Source of the DNA: an uncultured Selenomonas sp.
GTDB lineage: Bacteria; Bacillota; Negativicutes; Selenomonadales; Selenomonadaceae
Assembly (NCBI GenBank): GCA_934202005.1
Contig: CAKPXP010000021.1
Coordinates: 1-29,559, forward strand
DNA length: 29,559 nt
Direction: 5' to 3'
The number at the start of each line of letters is the position of its first letter. Within the stretch, counting starts at the first letter, position 1. Below are positions 1,665 through 29,559 of this stretch, piece by piece. The translations under genes were made by a program, and so were the position numbers. The notes beneath the pieces were generated by a model. It had not been told where the DNA came from, made no database searches, and saw nothing but the letters and a program-made list of their open reading frames with translations.

Positions 1665-1734
1665 ATGACTGAAATATACCTGAGATTTTCCAAAACGATT
1701 GCCACCATTCACGACTGCGGGGGGAGAACGTATC

Positions 1735-4700
1735 ATGGAGTCCAATTTTACATTCCTGCGCGAGCGCTTCCCGGTGCTCGCCCGCTTCGGCGAGCAGGCG
1801 GAGCGCTATTTTCGATCCGACGCCAACTCTTGCCTCATGAAGCTCGGCATGATTGGCGAGACCATCGTCCACCTCATCTACGACACCGACGGCATCGAGC
1901 TGCCCGTGCCGGACGACGCCGTGCACCGCATCCGGCGGCTTGCGCGCGAGGACTACATCCCGCGCGACATCGAAAGCATCCTCCACACCCTGCGCAAGAA
2001 ACGCAACCTCGCCGTCCACGAGAGCTACGACTCCGCAGAGGACGCCCGCGTCCTGCTGCCGCTCGCCTACACACTGGCCGAGTGGTTCTACGAGACGTAC
2101 GGCGACTACCGCTACGAGCACCGCGACTTCGTCCCGCCCGAGATCATCGAGGCGCGCCAGACCGAGGCCGAGCGCGCCGCCGAGGCGAAGCACGACGAGG
2201 AGATCGCCGCCCGCGCGAGCGCCTCCGCCCGCGCCGAGATCCTCTCGCGCACCGAGCGCCAGCAGCGCGCGAGCCGCGCCGCCCAGCACCGCCACAAGAG
2301 CGAGGCCGAGACGCGCCTGCTCATCGACGAGCAGCTCAGAAGCGTCGGCTGGGAGGCCGACACCCGGACGCTCCGCTACAGCCGCGGCACACGCCCCGCC
2401 AAGGGGAGGAACCTCGCCATCGCCGAATGGCCGACCGCCACCGGCCCGGCGGACTACGCCCTCTTCTGCGGCCTGCAGCTCGTCGCCATCATCGAGGCCA
2501 AGGCGCGCCACCGCGACATCGCGAGCGTCCTCGACGGCCAAGCGAAACGCTACGCCGCCGCGCCCCTCCCGGAGGGCCTCGCCGCCGACGCGCAGGCGCC
2601 CTACGGCGGCGAGGAGCCCGCCGCCTACCGCGTCCCTTTCATCTTCGCGACGAACGGCCGCCCCTACCTCGAGCAGTACAAGGAGAAATCCGGCATCTGG
2701 TTCCAGGACCTGCGCGACCCCATGAACATCCCGCACGCCCTGCGCGGCTGGATGTCCCCGGACGGCCTCAAAGACCTCCTGCGCGAGGACAAGAAAGCCG
2801 CCGCCAAAGCCCTCGCCGCCGAGCCCTACGACGAGCTGCGCGACAGCGCCGGCCTCGCCCTCAGAGACTACCAGATCCGCGCCATCGAGGCGGCGGAGCG
2901 CGCTATCGCGGGCGGCGCGCGCTCCGTCCTCCTCGCCCTCGCCACGGGCACAGGGAAAACGCGCCTCACCCTCGCGATGATCTACCGCTTCCTCAAGACC
3001 GGGCGTTTCCGCCGCATCCTCTTCCTCGTCGACCGCAACGTCCTCGGCAGCCAGGCGGAGGACACCTTCCGCGAGGTCAAGCTCGCCGAGCTCCAGACCC
3101 TCACGCAGATCTATAACATCCAGGGCATCGGCGACGACGCGCCGCTCGCGCGCGAGACGAGCCTCCAGATCGCGACCGTGCAGAGCCTCGTGCGCCGCAT
3201 CCTCTACCGCGAGGAAGGCCCCGCCCCCGCCGTCAGCGACTTCGACCTCGTCATCATCGACGAAGCCCACCGCGGCTACATCCTCGACAAAGACATGACC
3301 GACGACGAGCTCCTCTACCGCGACCAGCGCGACTACCTCAGCAAATACAGGAGCGTCGTCGACTACTTCGACGCCGTGAAGATCGCCCTCACCGCGACCC
3401 CCGCGCTCCACACGACGCAGATCTTCGGCGCCCCCGTCTTCACCTACTCCTACCGCGAAGCCGTCGTCGACGGCTACCTCGTCGACCACAACGCCCCCAT
3501 CCACATCGAGACCGAGCTCAGCGAAAACGGCATCCACTACGAAAAGGGCGACACCGCCATCCTGCTCGACCCCGAGACCGGCGAGATTGAAAACAGCGCC
3601 ACCCTCGCCGACGAGCTGGACTTCGACCTCGGCGACTTCAACCGCACCATCATCACCGAAGGCTTCAACCGCGCCGTGCTCGAAGAAATCGCGAAAAACT
3701 TCGACCCGACCGAGCGCCAGCAGGGGAAAATGCTCATCTTCGCCGAGAACGACCAGCACGCCGACCTCATCGTCCGCCTGCTGCGCGAGATCTATGAGGG
3801 ACAGGCCCCCGCCGCCGCCATCCGGAAAATCACCGGCACCATCGAGAACGGCAGCCAGAAGAAAATCCGCGAAGCCGTCCAGCACTTCAAGAACGAGCAA
3901 TACCCGAGCATCGTCGTCACCGTCGACCTCCTCACAACCGGCGTCGACGTCCCAGAGATCACGGCGCTCGTCTTCCTGCGCCGCGTGAAATCCCGCATCC
4001 TCTTCGAGCAGATGCTCGGCCGCGCCACGCGCCTCTGCCCCGCCATCAAAAAGGAAGCCTTCGACATCTACGACCCCATCGGCACCTACGCCGCCCTCGA
4101 GAAAGTCAGCAACATGAAGCCCGTCGCCGCGAGCCCGAAAGAGACCTTTGGAAGGCTCCTCGACGGCCTCGCAGACGAATCCCTCCGCGGCATGGAACAT
4201 GGCGCGGGCGAAAGCGACGGCGCACCAGGCGGCGAAAACGCCGCAGACACAGGTGACAGCACGGACACGAGCGGCGCACCCGGCAGCCGCGGCGGCGCGG
4301 CCGCACCTGACGGCACGGACGAGCACGGCGACACGCAGAGCGCCGCAGGCCGCGCAGACGAGACCGACGCGCGGCAGAAACGCCTCACCGCCCGCCTCGG
4401 CATCCTCACGGGCCGCCTGCGCCGCAAGGCGAAACTCCTCACCCCCGCGCAATCGCAGGACGCCGCGGCCGCCCTGCGCCTGCCGGATCCCGCCGAGACC
4501 CCCGCGAGGGCGGCGGACGAGCGCGCCGCGGCCGCACCGCGCCCGGGCGATATATCAGCCCCGGACGGCGCGCCGCGCCTCCCCGTCACCCCCGCCGCCC
4601 TCGCGGACTTCATCGCCGCCGTGCAGGCCCTCCCGCCGGAGCGCGCCCGCGCCGTCCTGCTCGCGAACCGCGCCGCCCTCGAGGACCTCGACCGCATCCA

Positions 4701-5328
4701 CCGCACGCGCAAAGGCGCTATCGTCATCGACCCCCGCGCCGACCGCGTCACCGCCGTCACGCGCGGCTACGGCGAGGGCGAGACGCGCCCCGAGGACTAC
4801 CTCGAGGCCTTCACCCGCTGGATCCGCGAGAACCGCGACCAGGTCGAGGCCCTGCGCCTCGCCTGCACGAGCCCGCGCGACCTCACGATGAGCGAGCTCA
4901 AAGCCCTCCGCAAGCAGCTCAGCCTCGCCCACTTCAGCGAGCGCCAGCTCACCGAGGCCTACACCGGCGACACGAAAAGCGACCTCACCGCCGACATCAT
5001 CAGCCTCATCCGCCGCGCGACCATCGGCGCGCCCCTCACGAGCCACGAGGAACGCATCCACCGCGCCATCGACCGCCTCATCGTCGAGCTGCGCGCGGAG
5101 CCCGGCTTCACGAAAATGCAGGAAAACTTCCTGCGCAAGATCGAAAAATACTTCCTCGCCGACGAAAACTACGTCGTGAGCATGCAGATGTTCCACGACG
5201 ATCCGCGCTTCACCCGGCAGGGCAACATCGCCCATTTCGACAAGCTCTTCGGCGGCCGCCTCGCCGCGACCATCGACAAGCTCAGCACCTATCTCTATGA
5301 CGACACCGATGGAGGAAAACTCGCATGA
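1735..5328 (+). CDS. hsdR: Type I restriction enzyme R subunit (HsdR)
   Basis: The ATP-driven translocase and nuclease subunit of a type I restriction-modification complex (R2M2S); it cuts DNA lacking the host methylation. It has 1197 residues. The N-terminal ~110 residues look like a DUF4145-type domain. The nuclease core has D240 and E254-A-K256, a PD-(D/E)xK arrangement. The SF2 motor shows Walker A ATGTGKT (403-409), DEAH (509-512), LTATP (552-556) and QMLGRATRL (759-767). A long low-complexity Gly/Ala/Asp/Thr-rich linker follows (about 818-940), then a C-terminal domain of the EcoEI R type. The start at 1735 has GGGGGAG just upstream; an earlier ATG at 1699 lacks a ribosome site. The stop overlaps the hsdM start (ATGA). 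It is intact. The domain order suggests the type IB-like R subunit, an inference from family knowledge. Confidence 0.96.
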   Translation: MESNFTFLRERFPVLARFGEQAERYFRSDANSCLMKLGMIGETIVHLIYDTDGIELPVPDDAVHRIRRLAREDYIPRDIESILHTLRKKRNLAVHESYDSAEDARVLLPLAYTLAEWFYETYGDYRYEHRDFVPPEIIEARQTEAERAAEAKHDEEIAARASASARAEILSRTERQQRASRAAQHRHKSEAETRLLIDEQLRSVGWEADTRTLRYSRGTRPAKGRNLAIAEWPTATGPADYALFCGLQLVAIIEAKARHRDIASVLDGQAKRYAAAPLPEGLAADAQAPYGGEEPAAYRVPFIFATNGRPYLEQYKEKSGIWFQDLRDPMNIPHALRGWMSPDGLKDLLREDKKAAAKALAAEPYDELRDSAGLALRDYQIRAIEAAERAIAGGARSVLLALATGTGKTRLTLAMIYRFLKTGRFRRILFLVDRNVLGSQAEDTFREVKLAELQTLTQIYNIQGIGDDAPLARETSLQIATVQSLVRRILYREEGPAPAVSDFDLVIIDEAHRGYILDKDMTDDELLYRDQRDYLSKYRSVVDYFDAVKIALTATPALHTTQIFGAPVFTYSYREAVVDGYLVDHNAPIHIETELSENGIHYEKGDTAILLDPETGEIENSATLADELDFDLGDFNRTIITEGFNRAVLEEIAKNFDPTERQQGKMLIFAENDQHADLIVRLLREIYEGQAPAAAIRKITGTIENGSQKKIREAVQHFKNEQYPSIVVTVDLLTTGVDVPEITALVFLRRVKSRILFEQMLGRATRLCPAIKKEAFDIYDPIGTYAALEKVSNMKPVAASPKETFGRLLDGLADESLRGMEHGAGESDGAPGGENAADTGDSTDTSGAPGSRGGAAAPDGTDEHGDTQSAAGRADETDARQKRLTARLGILTGRLRRKAKLLTPAQSQDAAAALRLPDPAETPARAADERAAAAPRPGDISAPDGAPRLPVTPAALADFIAAVQALPPERARAVLLANRAALEDLDRIHRTRKGAIVIDPRADRVTAVTRGYGEGETRPEDYLEAFTRWIRENRDQVEALRLACTSPRDLTMSELKALRKQLSLAHFSERQLTEAYTGDTKSDLTADIISLIRRATIGAPLTSHEERIHRAIDRLIVELRAEPGFTKMQENFLRKIEKYFLADENYVVSMQMFHDDPRFTRQGNIAHFDKLFGGRLAATIDKLSTYLYDDTDGGKLA

Positions 5329-6740
5329 CCAACCAAGAAATCGTAGCCAAGCTCTGGAACCTCTGCAACGTCCTCAGGGACGACGGCATCACCTACCACC
5401 AATACGTCACCGAGCTCACCTACATCCTCTTCCTCAAGATGGCGAAGGAAACCGACACCGAGGACGCCATCCCCGCCGCCTACCGCTGGGACGCCCTCAA
5501 AGACCGCAAAGGCCTCGACCTCAAGAACTACTACAAAGAGCTCCTCGACCGCCTCGGCACCGAGACCACCGGCCGCGTGCGCGAAATCTACGCCGGCGCC
5601 GCGACCAACATCACCGAGCCGAAGAACCTCGAGAAAATCATCACGAGCATCGACGCGCTCGACTGGTTCTCCGCCAAGGAGGAAGGCCTCGGCGGCCTCT
5701 ACGAAGGACTCCTTGAGAAAAACGCCGGCGAAAAGAAATCCGGCGCGGGCCAATACTTCACCCCGCGCGTCCTCATCGACGTCATGACGCGCCTCATAAA
5801 GCCCCAGCCCGGCGAGCGCTGCAACGACCCCGCCTGCGGCACATTCGGCTTCATGATCGCCGCCGCGCAGGCCGTGCGCGACGCCACGGACGACTACGAC
5901 GACCTCACCGTCGACGAAGCGAACTTCGAGATCAAAGAAGCCTTCACCGGCTGCGAACTCGTCCACGACACCCACCGCCTCGCGCTCATGAACGCCATGC
6001 TCCACGGCATCGAGGGCGAGATCTACCTCGGCGACACCCTCTCGAACTTCGGCAAGCGCCTGAAAGGCTACGACGTCGTCCTCACAAATCCCCCCTTCGG
6101 CACGAAAAAGGGCGGCGAGCGCGCCACGCGCGACGACTTCACCTACGCGACGAGCAACAAGCAGCTCAACTTCCTCCAGCACATCTACCGCAGCCTCAAG
6201 GCGGACGGCAAGGCGCGCGCCGCCGTCGTCCTGCCGGACAACGTCCTCTTCGCCGACGGCGACGGCCAGGCCATCCGCCGCGACCTCATGGAGAAATGCG
6301 ACCTCCACACCATCCTGCGCCTGCCCACGGGCATCTTCTACGCGCAAGGCGTCAAGACGAACGTCCTCTTCTTCACGCGCGGCGCGGGCGACCAGGGGAA
6401 CACGCACGAAGTCGCCTTCTACGACCTGCGCACGAACATGCCCTCCTTCGGCAAGACGCACCCGCTGAAAAAAGAAGACTTCGCGGACTTCATCGCCGCC
6501 TACGAGGCCGCCGACCGTCACGCCGTCCGCGACGAGCGCTGGCACATCTACACGCGCGAGGAGATCGCCGCGAAAGGCGACAGCCTCGACCTCGGCCTCA
6601 TCAAGGACGATGCCATCATCGACTACGAGGACCTCCCCGACCCCGCCGAAAGCGCCCGCGCCGCGAGCAAATCCCTCCGCGAAGCCGCCGCCCTCCTCGA
6701 CGAAGTCGCCGCCGAGCTGCGGGCAGGCAAGGAGGACTGA
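5325..6740 (+). CDS. hsdM: Type I DNA methyltransferase M subunit (HsdM)
   Basis: The N6-adenine methyltransferase subunit of the type I complex; it transfers a methyl group from S-adenosylmethionine to adenines in the site chosen by HsdS. The 471 residues begin with the helical HsdM N-terminal domain (to about 130), followed by the AdoMet-binding motif DPACGTFG (168-175) and the catalytic motif NPPF (255-258). The start ATG overlaps the hsdR stop by four bases (ATGA), which implies translational coupling. The coding sequence is uniformly GC-rich with C-ending codons, like hsdR and unlike parts of hsdS. It is complete, so the modification half of the system should be active if HsdS is. Confidence 0.97.
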   Translation: MTNQEIVAKLWNLCNVLRDDGITYHQYVTELTYILFLKMAKETDTEDAIPAAYRWDALKDRKGLDLKNYYKELLDRLGTETTGRVREIYAGAATNITEPKNLEKIITSIDALDWFSAKEEGLGGLYEGLLEKNAGEKKSGAGQYFTPRVLIDVMTRLIKPQPGERCNDPACGTFGFMIAAAQAVRDATDDYDDLTVDEANFEIKEAFTGCELVHDTHRLALMNAMLHGIEGEIYLGDTLSNFGKRLKGYDVVLTNPPFGTKKGGERATRDDFTYATSNKQLNFLQHIYRSLKADGKARAAVVLPDNVLFADGDGQAIRRDLMEKCDLHTILRLPTGIFYAQGVKTNVLFFTRGAGDQGNTHEVAFYDLRTNMPSFGKTHPLKKEDFADFIAAYEAADRHAVRDERWHIYTREEIAAKGDSLDLGLIKDDAIIDYEDLPDPAESARAASKSLREAAALLDEVAAELRAGKED

Positions 6741-6742
6741 GC

Positions 6743-8017
6743 ATGGCGAAGAAAAAACAAGACCTCACCCCAGAGGAACGCCTCGCCGCCGCGCTCGTGC
6801 CGGAGGAGGAATGGCCGTATGCGCTGCCGGATGGGTGGAAGTGGGTACGGCTTTTAGGTGGTGCAGCCACATGTATGGACAATAAACGAAAACCAGTAAA
6901 TTCAAAGGAACGCGCTAATAGAATCGGAGAGATTCCATATTACGGAGCAACCGGGCAAGTCGGATGGATTGATGAATACTTAACAAATGAAGAATTGATT
7001 TTACTCGGAGAAGATGGAGCACCTTTTTTAGACATCCTCAAAACGAAAGCATACATCATCAACGGAAAATCTTGGGTAAATAATCACGCGCATATTTTGA
7101 AATCTTTTATGGGGCATATTGGGAATTTATACCTGATGTACTATCTCAATAACTTTGACTATCGGAAATATGTAAGCGGAACCACAAGATTGAAATTAAC
7201 ACAAGGAAAGATGAAAAATATTCCTGTCCCATACCCCCCTCTCTCCGAGCAACGCCGCCTTGTCGCGCGCATAGAATCCCTCTTTGCGAAACTCGACGCC
7301 GCCAGGGAAAAAGTCCAGTCCGTCCTCGACTCCCACGAAACCCGCAAAGCCGCCCTGCTGCACGACGCTTTCACGGGGAAACTGACGGCGAGATGGCAAG
7401 AGGAACATAATCTTTCTTATAACGAATGGCATCTCGTGTGCATCAAGGATATTTGTCATAGTTTGAAATATGGTACAGCCAAAAAATCTGAAGCAAGCGG
7501 ACGCTATGTTGTTATCCGTATGGGAAATCTTTTTGATGGCGAGATTCTATGGGATAATTTAGCTTACTCCAACGACAGCGAAGATATTGAAAAATACCAA
7601 TTAACCCCAGGTGATGTTCTATTCAACCGAACAAACAGCGCCGCCTTAGTCGGTAAAACATCCATTTATCGAGGTGATTATCCAGCAATTTATGCGGGAT
7701 ATATTATCAAGTTAGATTATGACCGGCAAGCCATAGATGGCGAATTCCTAAATTATGTTATGAACAGTCCTTGTGCAAAAGCATATTGCAATAAGGTCAA
7801 GACAGACGGCGTCAATCAGTCCAATATCAATGCGAAAAAAATAGGCGCATTTCAGTTCAAACTCCCTTCTCTCCCCGAGCAGCAAGAAATCGTCCGCATC
7901 TTAGGCCGCCTGCTCGCGCGTGAGCAGCGCGCCCGGCAGGCGGCGGAGGAAACGCTTGCTGCCATCGACCGCATGAAGCAATCCATCCTCGCCCGCGCCT
8001 TCCGCGGCGAGCTCTAG
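6743..8017 (+). CDS. hsdS: Type I specificity subunit (HsdS)
   Basis: The DNA-recognition subunit, with two target-recognition domains each reading one half of a split site. The 424 residues read as: N-terminal segment (1-34), TRD1 (about 35-161), central conserved helical spacer from PPLSEQRRLVARIESLF to about 216, TRD2 (217-373), and a distal conserved helix starting PSLPEQQEIVRIL. The two conserved parts are recognisably copies of each other (PLSEQ/PLPEQ-like starts, AFTGKL and AFRGEL ends). The ATG at 6743 follows hsdM by two bases, with GGAGG at 6731-6735. The TRD-coding stretches (about 6845-7225 and 7393-7860) are strikingly AT-rich, while the conserved parts match the GC-rich neighbours. 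This is a mosaic expected from TRD exchange. The target sequence cannot be read from the gene. Confidence 0.95.
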   Translation: MAKKKQDLTPEERLAAALVPEEEWPYALPDGWKWVRLLGGAATCMDNKRKPVNSKERANRIGEIPYYGATGQVGWIDEYLTNEELILLGEDGAPFLDILKTKAYIINGKSWVNNHAHILKSFMGHIGNLYLMYYLNNFDYRKYVSGTTRLKLTQGKMKNIPVPYPPLSEQRRLVARIESLFAKLDAAREKVQSVLDSHETRKAALLHDAFTGKLTARWQEEHNLSYNEWHLVCIKDICHSLKYGTAKKSEASGRYVVIRMGNLFDGEILWDNLAYSNDSEDIEKYQLTPGDVLFNRTNSAALVGKTSIYRGDYPAIYAGYIIKLDYDRQAIDGEFLNYVMNSPCAKAYCNKVKTDGVNQSNINAKKIGAFQFKLPSLPEQQEIVRILGRLLAREQRARQAAEETLAAIDRMKQSILARAFRGEL

Positions 8018-11254: not shown

Positions 11255-11821
11255 ATGTCCAACTATCAATCCTTCACCGTCGGCGAGCCGTTCCCCCTGC
11301 CCATCGTCCACCAGGCGGACGGCGGCATGTTCCAGGTCGACGGCAGCGGCGCCATGTTCATCCTCCAGCTCAGCCGCGCCGACGTCATCGCGGCCGAGGC
11401 GTTCCGCACGGGCGCGATGGAGCTCGCGCTCTACGAGGAGGCGGGCATCCTCTTCCTCCTCTACCGCATCGACGGCATCTTCAAGGAGGGCTGGGGCGAC
11501 TGCCCGCTCGCGCTCCATCTCGTGAAACGCGAGCACCGGCCGACCGCGGCGAGCCTGCGCGACCATACGCTCCATCTCTACCTCGTCGACACGCGGCTGC
11601 AGCTCCTGCTCGCGCTGCGCGACGCTGCCATGACGCCGGCGTTCCAGCGCGTCCTCACGGACTATGTGACGGCGCACGCGGGCGAGACCGTCGATGCCGC
11701 CGACTTCTCGCGGCGGCTCCAGTCCGTCTGGGCCGCGCGCACGAGCACCGCCATGCGCGAGCGCGCCGCCGCCGTCCTCTCCCTCCCGTTCACGCTCGGC
11801 GCATCCCAAAAGAAATCATAG
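11255..11821 (+). CDS. Hypothetical protein, divergent from hydF
   Basis: A 188-residue protein I do not recognise. It has no signal peptide, no membrane segment and a single cysteine. The first half is mixed strand and hydrophobic (MSNYQSFTVGEPFPLPIV, then GILFLLYRIDGIFKEGWGD). The second half is helical and Arg/Ala-rich, with LHLYLVDTRLQLLLALRDAAM at about 109-129. It looks like a compact soluble cytoplasmic protein. The start is supported by AAAGGAG (11239-11245). Codon use matches its neighbours. It is alone on its strand here, divergent from hydF, and followed 35 bases later by the fold-back element at 11857. No function should be assigned. Confidence 0.75.
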   Translation: MSNYQSFTVGEPFPLPIVHQADGGMFQVDGSGAMFILQLSRADVIAAEAFRTGAMELALYEEAGILFLLYRIDGIFKEGWGDCPLALHLVKREHRPTAASLRDHTLHLYLVDTRLQLLLALRDAAMTPAFQRVLTDYVTAHAGETVDAADFSRRLQSVWAARTSTAMRERAAAVLSLPFTLGASQKKS

Positions 11822-11856
11822 AAAAGCCGCCTGCTTTATGATATGATATTTCTTAT

Positions 11857-12015
11857 GGAACCACTGATTAAATGAGGTGCTCCGGATTTACGCGGATGCG
11901 CTGTATCTCCCTAGGAGACAAATCCTCAGCGTAGCGGGCTACGCTGAGGATTTGTCGACGACGGGAGGACAACGCAGACGCGTGAAGACGGAGTGCCGAA
12001 TGAATCAGTGGTTCC
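11857..12015 (+). mobile_element. 159-bp fold-back MITE-like element, copy A
   Basis: It begins GGAACCACTGATT and ends AATCAGTGGTTCC, a perfect 13-bp terminal inverted repeat. The left and right halves are imperfect reverse complements over their whole length, and the centre is a near-perfect hairpin of about 18 bp starting GACAAATCCTCAGCG (left arm from about 11918). The reverse complement of 27443-27601 matches with no gaps and about 15 substitutions by eye. It has no coding capacity. Flanks are AT-rich (TTAT left, TATG right), so a short target duplication is possible but not certain. It lies 114 bases upstream of the HD-GYP gene. Confidence 0.85.
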
Positions 12016-12026
12016 TATGGGATACT

Positions 12027-12097
12027 TCAGAAGCTGCGGCCTAAAAGCGCGCCTCATAGCTAGGTACGCGCCGCTTTCTTCCCCCGCCCGCTTCTGA
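12027..12097 (+). promoter_or_regulatory. Structured leader of the HD-GYP gene
   Basis: An outer stem TCAGAAGC/GCTTCTGA (12027-12034 with 12090-12097) encloses GCGCG...CGCGC pairing around 12047-12071, with a CCT/AGG inner pair. The ribosome site AAAGGAG follows at about 12113. A GATACT with upstream TGG (12018-12026) could be an extended -10 just past the fold-back element. It does not match the c-di-GMP riboswitch consensus I know, so its role is open. Confidence 0.4.
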
Positions 12098-12129
12098 TAC
12101 GGGAAAATGAGTAAAGGAGATCGGAAACC

Positions 12130-13275
12130 ATGCTGCGCCTCTCTGTCAAAGACCTCAAAAAGGGCATGATCGTCGCCCAAAGCATCTACAACAACCACGG
12201 GGGCAGTTACCTCGTCCGGGGCAGCGCCATCACGCCGGAATATATCCGCCAGCTGCAGAAGATCGGCATTCCGACCGTCAACGTGACCTCCGCGGATCCG
12301 AGTTTCCAGCTCCTGCCGCCGGAGGACGTCGTGCAGGAGACGACGCGCATCGATGCCATCCAGCATGTGTTCGAGGCGTTCCAGAGCGTCGAGCAGGAGG
12401 GGCGTCTCGACGCCGAGGCGATGGAGCGCGTCTCGGACAACATCCTCATCGACCTCATCCAGCGCAAGGAGAACCTCATCCAGCTCACGGACATCCGCCT
12501 GCACGACACCTACACGTTCGCGCACAGCGTCAACGTCGCCATCCTCTCCGCCATGCTCGGCCTGCAGTGCCACTATACGAAAAAGGACCTCACCCTCCTC
12601 ACGCTCGGCGCGCTGCTCCACGACCTCGGGAAAATCGGCATCCCCGCCGAGATCCTCACGAAAAACACGCGCCTCACTGACGAGGAGTTCGCTACCATCA
12701 AGCAGCATCCCGAGCTCGGCGCGCAGCGCATCCATGAGATGGACAACATGCTCCCCTCGACGAGCCTGCTCGCCGCCATCGCGCGCGAGCACCACGAGCA
12801 TGTCGACGGACGCGGCTACCCGCGCGGCCTCGCGGGAGAGAAAATCCACCGCTTCGCGAAGATCGTCGCCATCGCCGATGTCTACGATGCGCTCACGAGC
12901 GAGCGCCCCTACAAGCGCGCCTACACGCCGAACGTCGCCTACAACATCATGAAGAATGTCAACATCGGCCAGTTCGACAAGACGCTGCTCGACATCTTCT
13001 TCAACAACGTCGCGATCTACCCTGTCGGCACCATCCTCAAGACGACCTGGGGCTATGCCATCGTCAAGCAATGCGAGTTCGGCAAGACGGAATCGCCGAC
13101 CATCATCCTCTTCGCCGATCTCGAGGGCAAGGTGCTCAAGGAGCCCATCACCATCGACCTCGCAGACGATCCGCTCGGCACGAAGGCCATCCAGATGGTC
13201 ATCGCCGACAACGAGCTCCGCCATTTCATCCACTCCCTCAGCATCGATCCCTCCATCTATCTGCAGGAGGCGTGA
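12130..13275 (+). CDS. HD-GYP domain protein (probable c-di-GMP phosphodiesterase)
   Basis: Probably hydrolyses the second messenger cyclic di-GMP. The 381 residues comprise an N-terminal domain of about 110 residues with no recognised sensor, then an HD-GYP domain. Metal-binding and signature motifs are present: HSVNV, LLHDLGKIGIP with H164-D165, KQHPELG, REHHEHVDGRGYP (219-231; the GYP variant of the signature is intact at 229-231), and IADVYDALTSERPYK. About 100 residues follow the catalytic core. It has no membrane segment, so it is cytoplasmic. The start at 12130 has AAAGGAG ahead. It follows a structured leader and the fold-back element and ends before a strong hairpin at 13298-13344. 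A PAS-GGDEF-EAL protein lies 1.5 kb away on the other strand, so the region holds two c-di-GMP enzymes. The substrate is inferred from the family. Confidence 0.92.
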   Translation: MLRLSVKDLKKGMIVAQSIYNNHGGSYLVRGSAITPEYIRQLQKIGIPTVNVTSADPSFQLLPPEDVVQETTRIDAIQHVFEAFQSVEQEGRLDAEAMERVSDNILIDLIQRKENLIQLTDIRLHDTYTFAHSVNVAILSAMLGLQCHYTKKDLTLLTLGALLHDLGKIGIPAEILTKNTRLTDEEFATIKQHPELGAQRIHEMDNMLPSTSLLAAIAREHHEHVDGRGYPRGLAGEKIHRFAKIVAIADVYDALTSERPYKRAYTPNVAYNIMKNVNIGQFDKTLLDIFFNNVAIYPVGTILKTTWGYAIVKQCEFGKTESPTIILFADLEGKVLKEPITIDLADDPLGTKAIQMVIADNELRHFIHSLSIDPSIYLQEA

Positions 13276-13297
13276 GGCGCAGCAAGTCCATATACCG

Positions 13298-13344
13298 CAA
13301 GGGCGGCGCACGCGATCCGCAAACGATCGCGTGCGCCGCCCTTG
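13298..13344 (+). terminator. Strong terminator-like hairpin after the HD-GYP gene
   Basis: A perfect 20-bp stem (13298-13317 with 13325-13344) has a 7-nt loop, 22 bases after the stop codon. There is no clear T run on the plus strand, so termination efficiency is uncertain. The dispersed repeat begins two bases later, as at the serS terminator. Confidence 0.65.
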
Positions 13345-13346
13345 TG

Positions 13347-13446
13347 CTATGTAAATCCCCAAGAACGCAAGCCGCAGGCGCAGCGTGATTGGTTGGATTT
13401 ACTGTAAGGGCGATGCACAATGTCCACGAAGTGGATGTTTGTGCAT
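13347..13446 (+). repeat. 80-100-bp dispersed hairpin repeat, copy 2
   Basis: Bases 13347-13426 match the reverse complement of 1-81. They contain the inverted repeat GTAAATCC (13351-13358) / GGATTTAC (13395-13402). A second hairpin follows: ATGCACAA (13413-13420) pairs with TTGTGCAT (13439-13446), with TCCAC/GTGGA inside. Copy 1 is cut within this second hairpin by the window edge. The repeat is non-coding. Its relation to the gene upstream (stop, 20-bp hairpin, repeat) is the same in both copies. Confidence 0.8.
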
Positions 13447-27370: not shown

Positions 27371-27425
27371 GAAAAACTCCCCTTTCCGACGCCTCGCAAT
27401 ATGCCGCAAAGCGTGCGCCCCGCAG

Positions 27426-27438
27426 AATCAGTGATTCC
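27426..27438 (-). repeat. Solo end of the fold-back element
   Basis: AATCAGTGATTCC differs at one position from the right end of the element (AATCAGTGGTTCC). It abuts copy B across TTAA (27439-27442), giving an almost perfect 30-bp palindrome. It could be a remnant of an earlier insertion or a captured target. Confidence 0.6.
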
Positions 27439-27442
27439 TTAA

Positions 27443-27601
27443 GGAACCGCTGATTAATTCGGCACTCCGTCTTCGCGCGTCTGCACTGTCCTCTCGTCGT
27501 CGACAAATCCTCAGCGTAGCCCGCTACGCTTCCGGTTTGTCTCCTAGAGAGATACAGCGCATCCACGCAAATCCGGAGCGCCTCATTTAATCAGCGGTTC
27601 C
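27443..27601 (-). mobile_element. 159-bp fold-back MITE-like element, copy B
   Basis: The same length as copy A (159 bp), inverted relative to it. Terminal inverted repeats are GGAACCGCTGATT and AATCAGCGGTTCC. Compared with copy A, position 7 is G instead of A, and its partner position 153 is C instead of T, so the pairing is kept. The central hairpin has several mismatches on one arm. TTAA flanks both ends (27439-27442 and 27602-27605 reads TTAA), fitting a 4-bp (or TA) target duplication. It has no coding capacity. It lies between a likely promoter (27608-27636) and the thioesterase gene. Confidence 0.87.
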
Positions 27602-27607
27602 TTAATA

Positions 27608-29477: not shown

Positions 29478-29559
29478 GGAAACGCTGATTAAATGAAGTG
29501 CTCCGGATTTACGTGGATGCGCTGTACTCTTCGGAGACAAACCGCAGGCGTAGCCAAAG
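29478..29559 (+). mobile_element. Fold-back MITE-like element, copy C (cut by window end)
   Basis: The left half of the element: GGAAACGCTGATTAAATG is one base different in the end repeat from copy B (A for C at position 5), followed by the shared GTGCTCCGGATTTACG and GGATGCGCTGTA segments. It is in the same orientation as copy A. The window ends within the central hairpin. It lies 101 bases upstream of the divergent radical SAM gene. The stretch between (29377-29477) holds only that gene's leader. Confidence 0.82.

Follow-up and report, generated by a model that had tools for sequence, protein, structure and literature searches.

The 159-bp unit that recurs in the window (the whole stretch of 29,559 nucleotides that was analysed) is a MITE, a short non-coding element that moves around the genomes of rumen-type bacteria, and this reading is correct, if of an ordinary sort. 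What was unexpected is a conserved, strand-specific core that stays as the ends change. Taken as a whole, the observations are probably best explained by a MITE that is mobilised in trans and whose one-strand fold is selected for the element's own movement or persistence. The usual view of a MITE is of two ends with filler between them. In the present element that filler shows good conservation and strand specificity and persists where the ends have changed, which opens the role of a MITE body to direct testing. The copies and their parts are located in the window as follows.

11857..12015, + strand (the one that carries the conserved fold): copy A, full 159-bp element (alignment, RNA folding, interior model)
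11857..11871, + strand: left terminal repeat of A, GGAACCACTGATTAA (end-pattern search)
12001..12015, - strand: right terminal repeat of A, GGAACCACTGATTCA, whose first 13 bp equal the left end (end-pattern search)
11853..11856, no strand: left flank of A, TTAT (CTAT at the uninterrupted site of Selenomonas bovis G001)
12016..12019, no strand: right flank of A, TATG (comparison with G001)
11885..11886, + strand: tandem G.A loop 1, 5' side GA (partner GA at 11987-11988)
11895..11896, + strand: tandem G.A loop 2, 5' side GA (partner GA at 11977-11978)
11915..11916, + strand: tandem G.A loop 3, 5' side GA (partner GA at 11957-11958)
11913..11963, + strand: tip domain of A, whose helices keep more identity between genera (92%) than the outer helix does (77%)
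27443..27601, - strand (the one that carries the conserved fold): copy B, full 159-bp element (alignment, folding, interior model)
27439..27442, no strand: target duplication TTAA left of B
27602..27605, no strand: target duplication TTAA right of B
27424..27438, - strand: remnant terminal repeat adjoining B, 3 mismatches (end pattern; the stretch is also in G001)
29478..29559, + strand: copy C, ended by the window edge (interior model, sequence comparison)

We begin with the copies themselves. An earlier note on this DNA had proposed three of them (A, an inverted B, and C from 29478) with common 13-bp terminal inverted repeats; all three are recovered by a model of the interior, whose two remaining matches are A and B read on the opposite strand, and the two ends of A do share 13 bp. 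The end pattern, with at most 3 mismatches, is matched 7 times in the window, where 0.66 matches would be expected. Copy C has 92% identity to A over its first 49 bases, and the gap-free alignment of A and B, both 159 bp long, contains exactly 15 substitutions where about 15 had been estimated by eye. That the element encodes nothing also stands: it is 159 bp long, and the sole open reading frame of at least 90 amino acids seen to touch copy A (11926-13362, - strand) runs out of the element. We take this frame to be spurious and the MITE to be without an encoded transposase. The remnant repeat beside B would stem from an older insertion. Elsewhere in the window, a second repeat family of 84 nt occupies 16-99 and 13329-13412 (85% complementary between the sites), with kin of about 30-114 bp at several loci of G001, G036, G080 and two Mitsuokella-labelled records, and the open frames at 1699-8017 have what we take to be a type I restriction-modification look.

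The mobility of the element is read from its insertion sites. In sampled stretches of S. bovis G001, a sister genome, there are 65 elements with paired ends, of which 44 carry an exact 4-bp target duplication (TTAA 21, CTAA 5, TTAG 4; mostly YTAR), 4 a shorter one and 17 none; YTAR targets are those used by IS5-group elements. Some of the 65 are adjacent with a common TTAA, and some are nested within one another. Copy A is polymorphic between strains, being absent from G001, where the uninterrupted site reads ...TTTC CTAT GGGATA...; its right flank TATG would be consistent with a CTAT duplication minus one C of the CCC run. At the locus of B, G001 lacks the element; it has 9 additional bp there and retains the old remnant of a terminal repeat, and this is not a clean site. 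Another genome, G026, has one copy with TTCA on both sides, directly after a broken IS5-type transposase gene. The copies lie mostly between genes: none of 60 (G001 and the window) is inside a called gene, and 7 of 89 in other stretches are inside a long ORF. Short elements (46-274 bp) bearing the same end sequence are found in records with the labels Oscillospiraceae, Ruminococcus, Synergistaceae, Treponema, Spartobacteria, Prosthecobacter and some proteobacteria, with at least 84 such elements, Selenomonas included, among the matches listed (at least 120 stretches).

Several relatives of the 159-bp form were seen alongside it. Four G001 elements (L015 1665-1748, L313 1546-1848, L306 1295-1742, L003 1464-1891) have the same ends and another interior (e.g. 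GATTAATAGTTGAA, AATCTTGCATTAATC) and are apparently a second MITE type; an element of 177 or 159 bp is nested inside those of L306 and L003. G001 also has a sub-family of 174-178 bp (L124, L299, L301, L303, L306, L312, L314 and others), whose member L124, printed in full, has a longer tip hairpin than the 159-bp form. In a Gallionella-labelled record (L116, near 3711) an end of the MITE type is followed directly by a TTGCGAGGAGCGTAGCGACG repeat, which we presume to be reminiscent of the CGTC-tagged REPs.

We turn our attention to the transposase partner. The earlier note placed the parent of a non-autonomous MITE outside the window, and this is supported by the terminal repeats, the 4-bp duplications in 44 of 65 elements, the uninterrupted site of A, and the IS5-family elements with similar ends that are present in relatives, none being found in G001. 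A relative carries a complete IS5-family element of 1263 bp (L185) with TTAA on both sides and end mismatches of 1 and 2, and a viral contig carries one of 1184 bp (L230) with a perfect left end, one mismatch at the right end, and flanks that differ (TATA/TTAA); against the IS5 family NF033581 (cut-off 140 bits) they score 318 and 297 bits, respectively. Both ends, with at most 3 mismatches and at the IS-like spacing of 1216-1304 bp, are present at 10 of 30 transposase loci, five of these 10 with identical flanks (TTAA at 3, TAAA or CTAG), and many of the remaining loci are fragments. Relatives of the L230-type transposase were detected in 16 of 200 genomes at E<=1e-30 and in 4 of the 17 genomes reached via end-pattern loci at E<=1e-20; the 30 transposase loci above come from this pair of searches. 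In G001 a single query gave no related transposase at E<=1e-30, and an IS5-type gene with stops (C11) is without these ends on both sides. Two candidate partners in G001, both PF01609 loci, were set aside since neither has matching ends on both sides, and ten open frames beside unpaired ends, considered as possible transposases, were none (HipA, solute-binding, starch synthase and others).

These observations are consistent with a mechanism in which IS5-family transposases, presumably active ones, would move the 159-bp MITE in trans by recognising ends of about 15 bp, the insertion occurring at YTAR-like sites with a 4-bp duplication. One strand folds into a long hairpin with a conserved tip cap; its stem is interrupted roughly every helical turn, in most cases by tandem G.A loops. 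This folded strand would help the element to move or persist.

Each copy had been described as one long hairpin, and the folding calculations agree: the sense RNA energies are -109.7 kcal/mol for A and -104.7 kcal/mol for B (z of -18.3 and -14.8), and none of 200 shuffles is as good. The earlier note argued for maintained pairing from positions 7 and 153, A-T in A and G-C in B. These states are as claimed, but the pair is weak alone because each state is one change from the commonest combination (G-T in 44 of 60 aligned copies, A-T in 6, G-C in 5). The covariation argument itself is right and understated. When positions are paired as in the predicted folds, three pairs (7/153, 34/127 and 54/108) have different bases on both arms between A and B, and each is Watson-Crick in either copy. 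A simple simulation with 15 random substitutions yields at least one such pair in 23% of trials and at least three in 0.1%. Together with the interior covariation over many copies and genera described below, these three pairs support the claim that pairing is maintained by selection or by a transposase.

Alternatively, the element may be a passive palindrome in which only the terminal repeats matter and the paired changes come from template switching and sub-family founder effects, since template-switch correction of near-palindromes can yield paired changes without selection. The comparison of A and B has features of this kind: 9 of the 15 differences are unmatched on the opposite arm, and four are clustered (67, 69, 70, 71) and turn the tip loop of A into a perfect palindrome, which looks like the outcome of one template-switch event. 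The rare variants discussed below, which have no strand preference, point the same way. Template-switch correction would, however, erase mismatches, yet the internal loops of the hairpin persist amid the turnover of the helices, and the core is retained where the terminal repeats differ. We consider the passive reading unlikely.

The constraint on the core is best seen with the ends removed. We use an alignment (A1) of 26 interior sequences, chosen from the window, G001 and ten other family genomes and excluding the G002 and G004 copies and other partial copies. In this alignment 95.2% of the cells are paired and double-sided changes occur at 23 of 48 pairs. The covariation score is 0.384, compared with 0.181 (sd 0.009) for shuffled alignments and at most 0.114 with slid partners. 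Two 2x2 GA/GA internal loops are kept in 25 and 26 of the 26 sequences; another two are kept in 20 and 17. Counted along the element, the loops are near 18-19, 29-30, 39-40 and 59-60, and one base is left unpaired at 49, so that the breaks of the hairpin are spaced about one helical turn apart. Column identity is 99.5% in the two best loops (eight columns), 92% in the tip helices and 77% in the outer helix, and none of 100000 random column sets matches the identity of the loops. In a second alignment of 55 model-aligned matches (A2), which leans to the structure and consists of hits chosen by the model, double-sided changes are seen at 46 of the 48 pairs. The helix sequences have changed, as have even the outer ends, and the fold has been retained throughout.

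The two strands of the palindrome are not equivalent. On the + strand of A the mismatches are G·A (10) and G·T (4), against no C·T and one A·C. The same holds under symmetric scoring of 60 aligned copies (58 from G001 with A and B, after exclusion of the 7 of 65 elements outside 150-180 bp): A·G 632 versus C·T 6, and G·T 387 versus A·C 71. This alignment, of the kind that the earlier note had called for, also has strong interior covariation away from the terminal repeats. The antisense RNA energies are -91.7 (A) and -79.5 (B), the sense strand being better by 18 and 25 kcal/mol, respectively. Among 30 mostly distant model hits G.T and A.C are nearly equal (104 versus 89), so that only close to Selenomonas is the G.T/A.C asymmetry clear; the excess of A.G in the same hits (254 versus 4) is partly built in because the model selects A.G.

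The next question is where selection would act. Rare variants, present in at most two of the 60 copies, have no strand preference (G·T 19 versus A·C 24; A·G 8 versus C·T 8) and depart from the fixed ratios with p of 1e-9 and 7e-13, on counts made without phylogenetic correction. Orientation is random as well. Among 89 copies from five genomes, 41 are on the G-rich strand and 44 run along the local gene majority, and their gene context is ++ in 21, -- in 20, +- in 22, -+ in 22 and undetermined in 4; this set comprises the matches of at least 50 bits among 120 listed, nearly all the rest being weaker reverse-strand matches of the same copies. A replication-strand or gene-direction bias, suggested by the order of hits in G036, was not found in these 89 copies. 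For the 60 copies of G001 and the window the context is ++ in 13, -- in 22, convergent in 8, divergent in 5 and undetermined in 12, and the 13 against 22 is no significant orientation bias (p 0.18). Gene calls for these tests were made with simple scripts, and the stretches of the 89 copies were chosen around the listed hits. Since resident copies decay without strand preference and are randomly oriented, we infer that selection acts on the mobile lineage, that is, on the copies that seed new copies and not on the resident ones, with the proviso that the distinct rare variants are few and their counts lack phylogenetic correction.

The same data bear on the idea of a host-useful RNA like ERIC or bcr, in which copies read into mRNAs stabilise or regulate neighbour genes and the host keeps the fold. 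The fold is stable and the copies are mostly intergenic, and other bacterial MITEs are transcribed and affect neighbouring genes via folding, according to the accessible part of one article (PMC3733652). This explanation nevertheless meets the lack of a sense bias in either the 60 or the 89 copies, the strand symmetry of the rare variants and the polymorphism of A between strains, and we regard it as very unlikely. A promoter belonging to the element was sought and rejected, with no promoter-like site inside A and one match outside it (11819-11847), and no terminator of copy A's own was found.

If the fold serves the element, the folded strand may act in either of two forms. Its action as RNA from active copies is a possibility to which we give somewhat less than an even chance. 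Its action as single-stranded DNA during mobilisation or replication, for example with the two ends paired into one duplex transposase site, is a real prospect but a rather doubtful one. Folding with DNA parameters also pairs both terminal repeats, and a role confined to movement would suit the random orientation of resident copies and their neutral decay. With those parameters, however, the sense and antisense strands of A differ little (-56.0 versus -51.9), whereas RNA parameters separate the strands by 18 and 25 kcal/mol, and the core accompanies several kinds of ends. IS5-type DDE transposition is not known to require single strands.

Whichever form acts, the core is widely distributed. 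The earlier note expected further copies in related genomes, and the interior model matches 75 of 189 family genomes in 20 of 30 genera; one genome (G135) has 148 matches among 150 scored candidates, so that the covariance model finds unannotated copies in many genomes. In a sample of the phylum 26 of 398 genomes are matched, 4 in the family and 22 outside. Model R1 gives rough E-values, and stricter filters were applied in scans over 40 genomes. When the model is applied to 100 end-pattern stretches (drawn from at least 120, with 8 Selenomonas/Mitsuokella-record stretches and 12 others excluded), 11 stretches contain 13 matches at E<=1 between them; the strongest are in Ruminiclostridium-labelled records (3e-14 to 9e-10) and in Synergistaceae records (8e-11 at best). 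As a control, 71 viral contigs with 646,845 bases give matches only in L247 (11454 bases, as long as one G001 contig), and a tip pattern has 0 matches in the viral contigs. The core is found within at least five kinds of ends, as follows.

GGAACCRCTGATTAA-like ends: also in Synergistaceae
GGCGTGTTGATTAA ends, flanks CTAG, CTAA or TTAG: G009, G280 and G061
GCCTTGTTTAAAAA ends, flank CTAG: G119
AGAAACTGTTCCAATA, AGAACCTGTCTTCACA and AGAAGCTGTATTCA ends: Ruminiclostridium-labelled and Oscillospiraceae records, the AGAAACTGTTCCAATA type adjoining a GGAACC-type element
TAGTGTAGTGGCACG ends: G658
TAGGAACTGTCACGGA ends: G028; these may be kin to the fourth type above

In four further families (f33, f40, f125 and f158) the copies seen pair via outer helices and have no terminal repeat in common; some of them are located among tRNA genes or beside 16S rRNA. 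Judging from the common tip CCGCAGGCGTA...TACGTCGAGGA, even the most distant hits are likely homologous. We tentatively suggest, while thinking it less probable than its converse, that the core is an independent, structured, RNA-like one-strand module passed between unlike transposon ends across Bacillota and Synergistota, in some lineages without shared ends. It would then be a mobile parasite or helper, non-coding, that acts through its fold for the benefit of the element rather than of the host. The strand-specific fold, the conserved tandem G.A loops and the presence of the same core inside other kinds of ends all go beyond the earlier note.

Two of these families have features of their own. 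In f125 (L391, L392, L394, L397, L403, L417) one or two core hairpins are reported per genome; their outer helices are unlike between most loci, yet pair well (L391 and L392 look like one locus in two genomes), and several hairpins extend 1-12 bases into an adjacent open frame at its stop end. The f125 hairpin looks unlike a terminal-repeat element. In f40 (L400, L405, L413, L404, L406) the loci have non-inverted flanks in common, GACCC-like at the left and CATGCACA-like at the right, which suggests another way of moving.

Finally, we compare the element with known systems. Over the window, Rfam 15 gives only a tRNA at or above the gathering threshold; a permissive search at copy A has a best sub-threshold score of 19.3 bits against 50, and a weak match to the rnk leader is taken as chance. 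At 20 distant loci Rfam reports only tRNA, rRNA and two riboswitches, all outside the model hits, and the core could be the basis of a family of structured nucleic acids that Rfam 15 lacks. The end strings were not found in the literature searched, which covered a minor part of the subscription literature; for the short tip strings the literature among the matches listed appears unrelated; and for miniature inverted repeats in Selenomonas only a viral-satellite study matched. IS5-family insertion sequences (NF033581) have similar ends and YTAR-like 4-bp duplications in common with the MITE, whereas the MITE has no gene, and its hairpin body bears no likeness, by eye, to the sequence inside of the terminal repeat in five IS elements.

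High-copy intergenic palindromes are also known as REP/BIME (GTAG- or CGTC-tagged), which in the accessible part of PMC3733652 are 20-40 bp long with an unpaired tag at one end, the GTAG types being linked to tyrosine transposases; the present element was considered as a REP and set aside, having about 159 bp, terminal repeats and 4-bp duplications. There is also a likeness with the bacterial palindromic MITEs named in the same portion of that source (bcr1, ERIC, YPAL, NEMIS, RUP and EFAR), which, like the 159-bp element, are short, non-coding, near genes and bounded by terminal repeats, and which, compared by description only, have robust secondary structures and are mobilised by transposases that recognise their ends. 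A strand-specific G.A-loop core between unlike ends is a feature of the present element that goes unmentioned for those MITEs in the accessible part of PMC3733652. In two B. cereus strains, 84 of 165 and 62 of 155 bcr-type intergenic repeats are found in mRNA (PMC3446304, accessible part). The stem-loop families of 40 bacterial genomes (PMC2267715, accessible part) are, like the core, repeats with conserved hairpins, and by their description two of them, Bcr1 (167 bp) and Efa-1 (163 bp), are similar in length to the 159-bp element.
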